DNA from: a virus
Virus record (IMG/VR): IMGVR_UViG_3300046727_000437
Location: 1 to 28,876 of that record
Length of the DNA stretch: 28,876 nt
Strand: one strand, 5' to 3'
Shown piece by piece: positions 17,655 to 27,632 of this stretch (its first letter is position 1; each line of letters starts with the position of its first letter). Position numbers and translations under genes: made by a program. The notes under the pieces were generated by a model. The model did no database searches. It was given only the letters and a program-made list of their open reading frames with translations, and was not told where the DNA came from.

Positions 17655-18584
17655 ATGCGCTGCTCAAAGCCCGACCTCTGGATGCCGCTGTACTGGGGCG
17701 ACTATCTCCGCGACACGGGGCATCTCAACGCGACCGAACACGGGGCCTACCTGCTCCTGATCGGACACTACTGGGCTACTGGCACGCCACTTCCCAGCGA
17801 GGACACGCTGCTGATGCGGATCACCCGCACGACGGCGCGCCAATGGCACGGCATCCGCAGCATCGTCATGGGCTTCTTTCAACGCGACGGCGACCAGTGG
17901 CGACACAAGCGGATCGACAAAGAACTTGCCCAGTGGAAACAGTTTCAGAAGCAGCGGAGGGCCGCCGGCCAGGCCAGCGCCGACGCTCGGCAGCAGGCGG
18001 CGACCATCAATGGTCTCCAAATGGAGACATCAGGAGGTCTCCAAACGGAGACATCACTTGCCCAAAAAAGTGAACAAAATCAACAAAAGTCGTCAACGAG
18101 CGTTGACAACAGCACAGCACAACACCTTCACAGTACTACTACTGTTGATGAGCGCACACCGCTTCATTGTGCTCAAGATGCTGTCATCGACGCCCTCGGC
18201 GTTCGCAACGATCCGAACTGGCTGGGCGACGCTGGCTTCGTTGAATGCTGGCTGAACTCAGGAGCGGATCTCAAGCGCGACATCCTGCCGACGATTCACC
18301 GGCTGATGGCCCGGCGCGGTGGCCGCCCCCGGCCGCGCAGCCTCCGGTACTTCAACGAGGCCATTGCCGACGCGATAGCCACCCGCACCCAGAAATTATC
18401 CCCCGGAACGCCACAACCACAGGAGCACCGCTATGGCCGCATGGGACCTGCCACCGGAATTGCCGCCGGATTCGCCGCCGCCCTCGCCGAACGCGAAGCT
18501 CGTCGCCGAGCAAATCATGCGGCTTCTGAGCCACTACTGGACGACGGGCGAGGACGAGGCTTTGCGCCGCCTGCAGGCCGATGA
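17655..18584 (+). CDS. DUF1376 replication protein (lambda O-like role)
   Basis: A 309-residue protein. ATG 17655 is chosen because AGGAG (17643-17647) precedes it by seven bases; the frame opens earlier without support. Residues about 6-95 match the DUF1376 winged-helix domain: WMPLYWGDYLRDTGHLNATE, HGAYLLLIGHYW, LPSEDTLLMRI. Phage DUF1376 proteins occupy the place of replication initiators. A linker (GLQMETSGGLQTETS) is encoded by iteron-like DNA repeats, followed by a low-complexity Ser/Thr/Gln tract and a C-terminal helical domain (LGVRNDPNWLGDAGFVECWL). The last 152 bases overlap the next gene. Predicted role is origin binding and helicase recruitment. Confidence 0.7.
   Translation: MRCSKPDLWMPLYWGDYLRDTGHLNATEHGAYLLLIGHYWATGTPLPSEDTLLMRITRTTARQWHGIRSIVMGFFQRDGDQWRHKRIDKELAQWKQFQKQRRAAGQASADARQQAATINGLQMETSGGLQTETSLAQKSEQNQQKSSTSVDNSTAQHLHSTTTVDERTPLHCAQDAVIDALGVRNDPNWLGDAGFVECWLNSGADLKRDILPTIHRLMARRGGRPRPRSLRYFNEAIADAIATRTQKLSPGTPQPQEHRYGRMGPATGIAAGFAAALAEREARRRANHAASEPLLDDGRGRGFAPPAGR
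18012..18180 (+). promoter_or_regulatory. Putative phage replication origin inside the DUF1376 gene
   Basis: Two 24-bp direct repeats (18012-18035, 18036-18059) each contain the dyad GTCTCC-AAAY-GGAGAC. Downstream, an A-rich top-strand stretch (18064-18090) is followed by a third dyad GTCAACG-AG-CGTTGAC (18092-18107). Iterons with internal symmetry next to an A/T-rich tract inside the initiator gene is the layout of the lambda origin in gene O. Function inferred from architecture. Confidence 0.5.
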
Positions 18585-18996
18585 CTGGCTTGAGGATCTC
18601 GAAGAGTTCGATGCGTCGATCGTGACCGATGCCTGCAAGTTCTGGCGGCGCTCCGAGAAGCGCAGGCCGACCCCGGCTGACATCCGCAAGCTGTGCATCG
18701 AGATGAGCCCACGACGCCGGCCGACCTCGCCCCCGCCACGGATCAGCGCGGAGGTGTGGACCACGCCGAAAGACCCTGAAACCTCGCCCGAGGTGCGCGC
18801 GGCGCAGGCCGCAGAGACGCTTGCCAAGTACGGCTTTCGTCGCATGCCCAGCGGCAACCTAGTGATGGGCGGCACGCCTGCGGAAGAGGAGGCCGAGAAC
18901 CCGGCCAAGGTCTGGGAGAAGCGAGCAGAGGCCTACGACCCGCCGCCCGACGATCCGGCGCTGATCGCGGCGGCCCTGAAGGCGCTCGAGCGGTAG
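18433..18996 (+). CDS. Replication-module protein, possible helicase-loader partner
   Basis: A 187-residue protein starting at ATG 18433 with AGGAG upstream, inside the last 152 bases of the DUF1376 gene in another frame. It begins with a Pro-rich segment (PPELPPDSPPPSP), followed by a helical domain with IVTDACKFWRRSEKRRPTPA and DIRKLCIEM, a pattern seen in proteins encoded next to phage initiators, then a Pro-rich C-terminal part. No Walker motif is visible, so it is not a DnaC-type loader; a lambda P-like or other accessory role is inferred from gene order. Confidence 0.5.
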   Translation: MAAWDLPPELPPDSPPPSPNAKLVAEQIMRLLSHYWTTGEDEALRRLQADDWLEDLEEFDASIVTDACKFWRRSEKRRPTPADIRKLCIEMSPRRRPTSPPPRISAEVWTTPKDPETSPEVRAAQAAETLAKYGFRRMPSGNLVMGGTPAEEEAENPAKVWEKRAEAYDPPPDDPALIAAALKALER

Positions 18997-21687: not shown

Positions 21688-22167
21688 ATGCCCTACGTTT
21701 CCGGCTGGCTGCATATCACGGAGCGCGGCCACCCCGACCAAGGCCTTCCCGGCCAAGGCCAGCAGCCCGGCTACCCGAGCCAGGGCTTGCCCGGCGGCGG
21801 CTTCCCCGGCCAGGGCCACCCCGACCAGGGTCTTCCCGGCGGGGGCCATCCCTGGATTCCGGGGCACATCCCGCCGCCGCCGCCCGGCGTCTGGCCGCCG
21901 CCCTCGAGCACCTTGCCGATCGTCCCCGCGCCCCCGGATACCCCGCCGGGCGTGATCTGGCCGCCGTTCCTGCATCCCGACCAGGGCTTGCCCGGCGTGC
22001 CGCCGCCGGTTCCCGGCCAAGGCCTGCCGGGCCAGCCGCCGCAGCCCGACCAGGGCTTGCCCGGACATCCGCAGGGCAAATTCTGGATCGTCGCCGGCAT
22101 CCCCGGCTATGGCTGGCGCTATGTGTGCGTCGATCCGAGCCTGACCCCGACCCCGAAGCCGCAATGA
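21688..22167 (+). CDS. PDQGLPG-repeat proline/glycine-rich protein
   Basis: A 159-residue low-complexity protein. After a short head (MPYVSGWLHITERG) it repeats (H/Q)PDQGLPG or close variants about six times, separated by Pro runs (IPPPPPGVWPPP), and ends with a compact hydrophobic domain (FWIVAGIPGYGWRYVCVDPS). Such repeats look collagen-like or scaffold-like; the role is unknown. GGAG precedes ATG. It is co-directional with the RHH gene and ends at a powerful terminator, so it is likely well expressed. Confidence 0.6.
   Translation: MPYVSGWLHITERGHPDQGLPGQGQQPGYPSQGLPGGGFPGQGHPDQGLPGGGHPWIPGHIPPPPPGVWPPPSSTLPIVPAPPDTPPGVIWPPFLHPDQGLPGVPPPVPGQGLPGQPPQPDQGLPGHPQGKFWIVAGIPGYGWRYVCVDPSLTPTPKPQ
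21731..22070 (+). repeat. Dispersed CCCGACCAGGGCTTGCCCGG-type coding repeats
   Basis: About six copies of a 20-24 base unit coding for PDQGLPG or PSQGLPG within the Pro/Gly-rich gene. Copies differ mostly at third codon positions, implying selection on the peptide as well as DNA duplication. Confidence 0.7.
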
Positions 22168-23253: not shown

Positions 23254-23552
23254 GGGCCCTCCTCTGGCTCGACATAGTCCGGATCTTCGTCCTCGAGGTC
23301 GTCCCCCTCTTGGGCCGCATCCATCAGCGCCGGCAGCAACTCCTCGAGCTCGGCCACACGCGCCCGGGCCAGCGCCGCCAACTTGGCGTAGATCCCCGGC
23401 GGCGGAGCCTGCTTGCCCGAGGCCCAGCGCTGGACGGTGCGGAGGTTCACCCCCAGATCCTCGGCCAGGGGCATCTGCCACACCCGGCCGTAGATCAGCC
23501 CGACGAAGGCATGGAGCAGCGGATTGGGTTGCCAAGGTTGCTCGTCGCTCAT
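23250..23552 (-). CDS. Small helix-turn-helix DNA-binding protein
   Basis: A 100-residue protein. PLAEDLGVNLRTVQRWASGK (about 28-47) is a clear helix-turn-helix with the recognition helix NLRTVQRWASG, of the XRE/transposase-like HTH type. The C-terminal 45 residues are very acidic (EGDDLEDEDPDYVEPEEGP) and may mimic DNA or contact polymerase. ATGA overlaps on both sides link it to a larger XRE protein and to the 159-residue gene. A phage transcription regulator is likely. Confidence 0.65.
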   Translation of the reverse strand: MSDEQPWQPNPLLHAFVGLIYGRVWQMPLAEDLGVNLRTVQRWASGKQAPPPGIYAKLAALARARVAELEELLPALMDAAQEGDDLEDEDPDYVEPEEGP

Positions 23553-24004
23553 GATCCGGCATCATCCTTGCCCGCTTGCCACAGCGCCGCCAGCGCAAAG
23601 GGCAGGTAGCGCCGCCGCTCCTCGTCCAGCCCCGCCACCATCCACGGGTGATCCTCGATCCATTGCAGCGCCGCACCCCAACCCCCCCCCTCCGGGGGGC
23701 CCCAGGGGGGAGCGTTCGGGGGGATGATCGGGGACGCCCCTCCGATCGGCGGCACCAGGGTCGCCGCCGGCACGCCCAGCGCCGCCGCCAGCCTGATGAG
23801 ATTGGCCGGATCGGGATAGCTCGTGCCGCGCAAATAATGCCCGATGCGATCGCGATTGCGCGCCACCGCATAGCCACGCTTGTCCTTGATCGTCCCCCAG
23901 ATCCGCGCCGCCAGCTGCGAGGCGTTGAGCCCTTGCCGCGCCATCGCCGCCTTGAGCGCCGCCGCAAACGCCTGGCGCATCGGATCATCCGGCCGCCGGC
24001 TCAT
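23549..24004 (-). CDS. XRE-family repressor-like regulator
   Basis: A 151-residue protein starting MSRRPDDPMRQAFAAALKAA at ATG 24004 (ATGA overlap with the upstream gene). ARQGLNASQLAARIWGT (about 20-36), then NRDRIGHYLRGTSYPDPANL and IRLAAALGVPAATLVPP form the full XRE five-helix DNA-binding domain. A Pro/Gly-rich linker coded by long C and G runs leads to a C-terminal helix (FALAALWQAGKDDAG). Without a LexA-like protease part it is not a cI-type self-cleaving repressor; a Cro-like or early/late switch role is suggested. Confidence 0.75.
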   Translation of the reverse strand: MSRRPDDPMRQAFAAALKAAMARQGLNASQLAARIWGTIKDKRGYAVARNRDRIGHYLRGTSYPDPANLIRLAAALGVPAATLVPPIGGASPIIPPNAPPWGPPEGGGWGAALQWIEDHPWMVAGLDEERRRYLPFALAALWQAGKDDAGS

Positions 24005-24120
24005 CTTATCCACCAGTGCAGGAGCCAGCCGAGGACGACGGGGCCGCCGATCATCAGCCCCAGCACCCACTTGAAATCGGCCATGAAGACGCCGACCAGC
24101 GCAAGGTTCATCGGGTCCAT
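24001..24120 (-). CDS. Very small membrane protein (39 aa)
   Basis: MDPMNLALVGVFMADFKWVL, followed by 19 residues ending GWLLHWWIR, gives one or two hydrophobic segments and a basic aromatic end. GGAGG lies eight bases before ATG. It overlaps the XRE gene by ATGA. It directly follows the last copy of the conserved cassette junction and a 7-bp hairpin. A membrane effector of infection is possible; function unknown. Confidence 0.5.
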   Translation of the reverse strand: MDPMNLALVGVFMADFKWVLGLMIGGPVVLGWLLHWWIR

Positions 24121-24143: not shown

Positions 24144-24165
24144 GGCATTCAAAGAACTGAATGCC
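24144..24165. terminator. 7-bp hairpin at end of cassette array
   Basis: GGCATTC (24144-24150) and GAATGCC (24159-24165) pair perfectly around 8 bases. It lies immediately after the leftward array gene ending at 24171, and the array's fifth ATG sits at its foot (24165-24163) without a following long gene. Possibly an attenuator between the array and the regulator genes. Confidence 0.45.
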
Positions 24166-26760: not shown

Positions 26761-26808
26761 CGGATCTACTCCGCTCATCGGGCCGGCACTGCGCCGCTCC
26801 CTCCTATG

Positions 26809-26866
26809 CCCTTAAGCCTCGCTACGGTCACCCGTGCGAGGCTCGAAGGGAATGATGCGCCGCCTA
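26809..26866 (-). ncRNA. 58-nt stop-proximal hairpin element, copy A
   Basis: On the + coordinates GCCTCGC (26816-26822) pairs with GCGAGGC (26836-26842) around a 13-base loop, flanked by CCCTTA and AAGGG that also pair. The element starts at the TAG stop of the small gene at 26864. It aligns without gaps to copy B at 27401-27458 with a compensatory change in the stem and a 21-nt identical flank. Confidence 0.6.
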
Positions 26867-27070
26867 GTCCTGCAGCAGCGCCATGTTGCGCGCATCGAAC
26901 GCCTTGGCTGTCGCCGCGTCGCGCCACGCGCCACAACCGTTCTCGCCGTCCAGCATCTCGCGCGCCGTCGCCGCGCACTTGCCGCGCCCGCCTTCCACCG
27001 TGACCTTCATGCCTGCAAAGGCCTGCTGCAGCGCTTTCTTGATCGCGCGATTGCGGATTGCCGTGGTCAT
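26864..27070 (-). CDS. Small basic hypothetical protein (68 aa)
   Basis: MTTAIRNRAIKKALQQAFAG, KVTVEGGRGKCAATAREML and GENGCGAWRDAATAKAF. GGGGAGG lies six bases before ATG 27070; the frame opens earlier inside the preceding gene, so the internal start is chosen. Basic N-terminal helix; two Cys. Its stop TAG belongs to hairpin element A. Function unknown. Confidence 0.5.
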   Translation of the reverse strand: MTTAIRNRAIKKALQQAFAGMKVTVEGGRGKCAATAREMLDGENGCGAWRDAATAKAFDARNMALLQD

Positions 27071-27358: not shown

Positions 27359-27400
27359 CGGTGCCTGCCTCCAGGACCGGCGTGATTGCCGCTTCCTGAC

Positions 27401-27458
27401 CCCTTAAGGCTCGCCACCATCACGTGAGCGAGCCGGTAAGGGAATGATGCGCCGCCTA
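27401..27458 (-). ncRNA. 58-nt stop-proximal hairpin element, copy B
   Basis: GGCTCGC (27408-27414) pairs with GCGAGCC (27428-27434) around a 13-base loop; CCCTTA and TAAGGG extend the pairing. Relative to copy A the second stem pair is swapped (C-G to G-C). The element starts at the TAG stop of the 58-residue gene at 27456 and lies in the leader region of the HTPGPW gene. Confidence 0.6.
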
Positions 27459-27632
27459 CCCCAGCGACGGCCCCAGTATGTAAGCATGCCGCGCCACACC
27501 CGGATTGCTCGCCTGCAACCCGCGCATGTACACCTCCGCCAGCGCCTTGCTGCTCGTGCGGTAAATGTAGGTCACCTCGTGCGGCGGATTGACCACCACT
27601 TTCCATTCCGGCTTTGTCGCTTGCTTCGCCAT
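27456..27632 (-). CDS. Small hypothetical protein (58 aa)
   Basis: MAKQATKPEWKVVVNPPHEV, TYIYRTSSKALAEVYMRGLQ, ending AYILGPSLG. GGAG lies about seven bases before ATG 27632, and a good promoter lies about 60 bases upstream, so the longer frame to 27704 is rejected. A strand-helix-strand fold is likely (VTYIYRTSSKALAEVY). First gene of the upper leftward operon. Function unknown. Confidence 0.55.
   Translation of the reverse strand: MAKQATKPEWKVVVNPPHEVTYIYRTSSKALAEVYMRGLQASNPGVARHAYILGPSLG

Follow-up and report, generated by a model that had tools for sequence, protein, structure and literature searches.

A DUF1376 gene contains a dense cluster of inverted repeats

We analyzed a virus record of 28,876 bases (hereafter the window; GC content 65% record-wide), in which an AGGAG precedes the ATG at 17655 of a gene for a DUF1376 protein (Table 1). 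The gene product scored 77 bits against the curated PF07120 (DUF1376) HMM over residues 9–92, above the cut-off of 30.1, which places it in this family, and its PHROG matches were to families annotated as primosomal protein. A Pfam scan of the protein found no family besides DUF1376, and a PDB sequence search with the DUF1376 profile found no related chain. In a confident structure model (pLDDT over 90 in blocks within residues 11–120), the domain forms a winged helix that leads into a long helix, and the linker at residues 126–171 had no predicted secondary structure (pLDDT under 50 at 134–145 and 147–173). A Foldseek search of the model against the PDB gave no match at E 0.001 or better. The top matches of a second look at the domain fold were winged helices from origin-recognition complexes and RepA_N initiators, at Z scores of 5.5–6.6, and such modeled resemblance is not enough to claim kinship with either group. 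The DUF1376 gene is followed in the window by a 187-aa gene, then by genes for an Erf-like annealing protein and a YqaJ-type exonuclease. The 187-aa product matched no family in Pfam or PHROG, loader families included.

Table 1. Positions of the DUF1376 gene, its parts, the repeat elements and the adjoining gene in the window.
Feature	Position	Strand	Basis
DUF1376 gene, 309 aa, candidate replication initiator	17655..18584	+	PF07120; PHROG primosomal-protein families
Part coding for the DUF1376 winged-helix domain (residues 9–92), proposed to bind iterons	17679..17930	+	Pfam coordinates, structure model
Dyad GACCAT-CA-ATGGTC, GACCATCAATGGTC, overlapping iteron 1	18002..18015		sequence
Iteron 1, 16-bp dyad GTCTCC-AAAT-GGAGAC, GTCTCCAAATGGAGAC	18013..18028		sequence
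Part coding for the disordered linker (residues 126–171)	18030..18167	+	structure model
Iteron 2, 16-bp dyad GTCTCC-AAAC-GGAGAC, GTCTCCAAACGGAGAC, 24 bp from iteron 1	18037..18052		sequence
A-rich tract, 39 bp, GC 0.33, 20 A, candidate unwinding element	18053..18091		composition
Dyad TCACTT-N8-AAGTGA	18054..18073		sequence
Dyad 3, 16 bp, GTCAACGAGCGTTGAC	18092..18107		sequence
Dyad 4, ACAGTA-CTAC-TACTGT, ACAGTACTACTACTGT	18130..18145		sequence
187-aa gene, at the position where relatives have a P-/DnaC-like loader or DnaB	18433..18996	+	Pfam, PHROG: no family

An initial annotation had placed GTCTCC-AAAY-GGAGAC dyads, an A-rich strand and a further dyad inside the DUF1376 gene, and we found all of these elements there. 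It had also described two 24-bp direct repeats; the direct repeat exists (18012–18032 and 18036–18056, 20 of 21 positions identical), but 24 bp is its spacing, the dyads themselves are 16 bp, and the full 24-bp units differ at four positions. Similarly, the peptide GLQMETS, said to be repeated, is encoded by the first copy, whereas the second reads GLQTETS. The A-rich tract lies between dyads 2 and 3, and in GC only one locus of the window is below the 100-bp stretch at 18049, with lower values in 0.16% of the stretches compared. Dyad 3 contains a TCAACGNNCGTTGA element that is present in 11 other retrieved loci, some of them close kin of one another.

The repeat region is the densest dyad cluster in the window. 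When perfect dyads (arm of at least 6, loop of at most 4) were counted in a 168-bp slice, there were five, as against a mean of 0.57 under a synonymous-permutation null that preserves the peptide (1 of 5000 permutations as high) and a mean of 0.27 when codons were resampled according to the gene's codon usage (0 of 5000). Across the window, 2 of 2393 overlapping slices held at least five perfect dyads, both of them at this place. The pattern GTCNNCRANNGNNGAC, which was derived from three sites in the repeat region, matched the window four times, those three sites among them, where 0.24 matches were expected. As single-stranded DNA, the region folded 4.75 SD better than dinucleotide shuffles. 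Direct repeats out of frame were not elevated in the window's linker (2 versus about 4.9), and the combined measure of inverted and out-of-frame repeats gave a p value of only.0498, because the repeats here are dyads and in-frame copies with few out-of-frame ones. GC skew, suggested earlier as a check on the origin, was uninformative, with no clear turning point at the DUF1376 gene. A DnaA-box consensus found no match, and the window contained no Rfam family and no tRNA.

Other repeats occur elsewhere in the window. A near-identical 24-nt segment (GCCATGGGTCAGCCCTCC...) is present five times, at 24163, 24484, 24736, 25039 and 25309, and reads on the minus strand as the ribosome-binding site and start codon of successive small genes. 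An 82-nt segment has two copies that are 74% alike (26802–26883 and 27394–27475), and a 30-bp imperfect tandem repeat at 21727–21852 lies in an ORF (21688–22167) for a repeat protein rich in Gly, Leu, Pro and Gln.

Linker-coding DNA is rich in repeats across the DUF1376 family

Loci of the family were collected by patterns from the DUF1376 domain alone and, because they were found by the domain only, the linker did not bias their choice. From the first set we excluded a copy of the window (L001), genes with less than 150 nt after the domain, sequences with ambiguous bases and near-duplicates, dereplication taking 99 usable genes to 84. The 210 nt after the domain were then compared with peptide-preserving nulls. 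Inverted 6-mer pairs averaged 10.04 per linker against a null of 5.46 (1.85-fold), and out-of-frame direct 6-mer pairs 11.92 against 5.71 (2.1-fold). The family's linkers held 105 perfect dyads (arms of at least six) against 38.5, of which 26 had a two-base loop, against 5.6. At the C-terminal end, inverted pairs over 210 nt in 67 genes averaged 6.27 against a null of 6.91, and out-of-frame repeats in the C-termini of this set were mildly elevated (431 versus 339, z 4.1). A milder excess was present in the final 210 nt that encode the domain (inverted pairs, z 5.4; 11-bp repeats, 17 versus 6.2).

A hold-out from bacterial genomes comprised 42 loci, 30 of them with the domain and 29 usable, from which five duplicates were removed to leave 24 genes. 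Inverted pairs (259 versus 144.8, z 7.5) and out-of-frame pairs (319 versus 170.1, z 9.1) were both in excess, with 0 of 400 null sets as high in either case. The C-terminal regions of 16 hold-out genes showed no excess (136 versus 138.5 and 91 versus 86.2). Of the 108 linkers in the two sets together, 58 were individually at p <.05 and the other 50 above. Our positive control, the part of lambda O with annotated iterons, gave 17 inverted pairs against 4.41 and 37 out-of-frame pairs against 11.1. Dyads in lambda O counted with looser arms (arm of at least 5, loop of at most 7) were not significant (3 versus 1.44; 168 of 1000 as high), and dyad counts alone are therefore an insensitive detector. 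On these statistics, selection acts on the linker-coding stretch of DUF1376 genes as DNA.

Could the repeats merely be low-complexity coding sequence, produced by slippage or by selection for a flexible peptide? Hexanucleotide runs coding for SPSPSP, SQSQSQ and DTDTDT are common in DUF1376 linkers, and in the window itself the two copies keep the reading frame, at a spacing of 24 bp. Against this explanation, inverted repeats, out-of-frame repeats and 11-bp spacing all exceed synonymous nulls, whereas control windows of low entropy (n = 167) or rich in disorder (n = 51) reached ratios of only 1.08–1.24 and had no clear 11-bp excess. These sequence comparisons largely refute low complexity for the family, and we consider it highly improbable as the account of the repeats. 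Many linkers (for example L059, L063, L084 and L096) have hexanucleotide runs, (CCTTCA)n, (ACAGAT)n or (CAGAAT)n, 3′ of the iterons, encoding SPSPSP, DTDTDT or NQNQNQ; such runs are possibly part of the origin. In further linkers (for example L032, L050 and L081), an extra dyad resembling a hairpin, its central loop short, is found 3′ of the iterons, sometimes near an SSLRS-like peptide.

Repeats follow the DNA helix and drift through the reading frames

In 54 of 84 linkers, against a null of 19.1, some 6-mer recurred at a distance of exactly 11 bp, and repeats were likewise frequent at 22 bp (34 of 84 versus 11.3) and at 23 bp (23 of 84 versus 9.7). Since 11 is not a multiple of three, each 11-bp step shifts the reading frame. 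In 900 control windows taken from ORFs elsewhere in the same loci, the 11-bp repeat occurred in 5.0% against a null of 4.2%, whereas the same comparison for linkers gave 64.3% against 21.7%. Low-entropy controls gave 7.8% versus 6.8%, and disorder-rich controls 3.9% versus 9.0%. In the hold-out, the 11-bp peak was not significant (6-mers, 7 versus 4.9) and the 22-bp peak was elevated (8 versus 3.6).

Individual iteron cores showed how freely the frame varies. Of 108 genes, 16 held the core TCAACG twice or more (48 copies), and it occurred in five strand/phase states, encoding ST, VNE, VQR, PLN and PVE; GCAATG (17 of 108 genes, 42 copies) occurred in six, encoding AM, SNA, KQC, ALP and others. 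TCAACG by itself was rejected as a marker, its 31 sites being spread over the window. In the Pseudomonas phage PfDIW6 (42.3 kb), 6 of 14 TTCAACG/CGTTGAA sites fall inside the DUF1376 gene; three of these lie in the domain-coding part (L198:36014–36045) and three more in the linker.

The check proposed at the outset, whether DNA symmetry is kept while the protein varies, thus came out favorably for the family as a whole: the excess is in the linker, is far less elsewhere, and the 11- and 22-bp spacing overrides codon phase. The accompanying suggestion, in which the iterons give rise to the linker peptide incidentally, gained support, as linker repeats exceed peptide-preserving nulls in several frames and in both orientations.

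We also compared k-mer sharing among iterons in the 84 of 108 genes with a sufficiently long C-terminus. Sharing rose with N-domain similarity (partial rho 0.218) but showed no such relation to C-terminal similarity (0.009), and 201 gene pairs shared the N-domain while having unrelated C-termini. This pattern of sequence similarity is consistent with the N-domain as the reader of the iterons, with common descent of the adjacent linker also contributing.

Gene neighborhood and base composition

In annotated phages, the gene order was repressor, a CII-/YdaT-like or small gene, DUF1376, and a DnaC-like protein or helicase loader, an O-P-like neighborhood. Among 71 downstream ORFs, picked mechanically, 11 matched P-like loaders (phrog_109), and the remaining matches were to DnaB helicase, primase/helicase, DnaC-like loaders and the DnaA C-terminal domain. 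The DNA just after the domain also has a characteristic composition in the family, with a GC dip of 5–7 points at 60–180 nt and a strong skew of A over T on the coding strand.

The dyads might instead be operators, through which some phage regulator, the DUF1376 protein or a different one, controls transcription through the gene while replication starts elsewhere. Their size would suit dimeric repressors as well, and an HTH protein is encoded in the window at 23549–24070. However, operators usually lie at promoters, and these dyads lie about 350 nt into the gene; moreover, the element occupies the same gene position family-wide, together with the A-rich low-GC dip, and adjoins replication genes. 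We therefore regard an operator function in place of an origin as unlikely.

The window has no close relatives among the contigs scanned: its DUF1376 protein retrieved five distant loci from viral contigs and two from genome contigs, and the 187-aa downstream protein retrieved none. GTCTCC iterons were found in no relative's DUF1376 linker. The pattern GTCTCCAAANGGAGAC occurred in 43 stretches of viral contigs, about the chance level for 15 fixed bases by a rough estimate, and the loci taken from these stretches (L111–L155) contained no DUF1376 gene. Three stretches, L142, L154 and L155, had the paired form of the window's iteron. Two of them appear unrelated to replication: the pair in L154 (3821–3857) is inside a 223-aa ORF, which encodes SPIGDKMSPMGDK there and adjoins a transposase-like ORF, and in L155 the hairpins are in tandem at the edge of a gene. 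L142 has four copies of GTCTCCAAAYGGAGAC (2104–2206, spacings 25, 31 and 31), with a 10-bp repeat ahead of them, upstream of an ORF (likely start 2289) that matched no family, followed by a gene for a DnaB-like helicase. By its sequence, L142 would appear to hold the window's iteron within a different replication module.

The location of the L142 copies, outside any DUF1376 gene, bears on a further alternative, namely that the iterons bind the initiator for copy control or incompatibility and that the opening site is outside the gene. Plasmid iterons often serve both as origin and in copy control or incompatibility. Nevertheless, the A-rich tract and the iterons occur together in the window, and in 67 of 108 genes the 40 bp poorest in GC fall 50–200 nt past the domain; we consider an opening site elsewhere quite improbable.

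A proposed origin inside the gene of its initiator

We propose that 18002–18145 is probably the replication origin of this phage, lying within the coding sequence of its own initiator, with DUF1376 reading the iterons and the linker arising as a by-product. The winged-helix N-terminal domain would bind the 16-bp dyads as dimers, the 39-bp A-rich tract between dyads 2 and 3 would be strained until its strands open, and the C-terminal part, judging from the gene neighborhood of relatives, would recruit a helicase or loader. The disordered linker would be whatever the iteron DNA encodes, with iterons recurring at 11 and 22 bp, that is, at one or two helical turns, whatever the reading frame. Binding, opening and loading are here modeled by analogy on lambda O and pSK41 Rep.

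More broadly, and with less assurance, we lean towards the view that DUF1376 proteins are widespread, unrecognized origin-carrying initiators of phages and prophages. The wHTH domain and the iteron cassette, phased at 11 and 22 bp and drifting through the frames with the linker as by-product, would form one traveling unit, to which varied C-terminal modules fitting different loaders or helicases are joined. If true, proteins now labeled as of unknown function would gain a role, the replication origins of many phages and prophages would be locatable by sequence alone, and there would be a clear example of a protein segment dictated by its own DNA. Because the repeats are helically phased and drift through the frames, the claim is directly testable by synonymous recoding.

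Comparison with known systems

In the E. coli Rac prophage, ydaU is a DUF1376 gene adjoining ydaV (DnaC-like), and its inverted repeats after the domain numbered 20 versus 8.16 (p =.004). One report describes an active origin, oriJ, in this prophage (PMC3945230); the PMC literature searched gave no coordinates of oriJ relative to ydaU. Likewise, in the PMC literature searched, also for YdaU and for origins inside initiator genes, no paper was recognized as linking DUF1376 to a replication origin.

The RepA_N initiators, such as pSK41 Rep and PLE RepA, are described as binding repeats through a winged-helix N-domain, and their iterons as inverted repeats that converge on a poly-A tract (PMC7145576). 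GTCTCC-AAAY-GGAGAC of the window is likewise an inverted repeat converging on A's. In pSK41, according to one study, four Rep boxes lie centrally in the rep gene and the linker that they encode is dispensable, and in pPR9 a different N-domain is joined to the same C-domain as in pSK41 Rep (PMC5703833). The window's repeats are similarly central in the initiator gene and encode a linker. Unlike these proteins, however, the window's DUF1376 protein matched the RepA_N family neither in Pfam (PF06970) nor in the PDB sequence search. The RepA_N folds (4pta, 4pt7 and 5kbj) scored Z 5.5–6.1 over 84–85 residues, scores that ORC and other winged helices equaled, and Z values under 8 may reflect a common fold only.

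Lambda offers a further parallel in layout. Two papers place ori-lambda in the middle of gene O, where inverted-repeat iterons followed by a 39-bp A/T-rich tract encode a flexible linker (PMC7466680, PMC6022878). The window likewise has inverted-repeat iterons and an A/T-rich tract inside the initiator gene, and the repeat signature of DUF1376 linkers is found in lambda O too. The two origins differ in detail: the window has two GTCTCC iterons plus other dyads, whereas lambda has four alike, and the dyads are 16 bp in the window and 18–19 bp in lambda. Moreover, hhalign of the DUF1376 profile against the single lambda O sequence gave a probability of 0.4% over 20 columns. The description of the origin as lambda-like in the initial annotation would hence apply to the arrangement of iterons and A-rich tract and to the mode of working, and not to homology. 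Origins inside initiator genes are already known from lambda and from pSK41-type plasmids; what appears to be new here, judging from the literature searched, is a proposed origin of this kind in DUF1376 genes, with frame-drifting 11-bp phasing as its distinctive feature.
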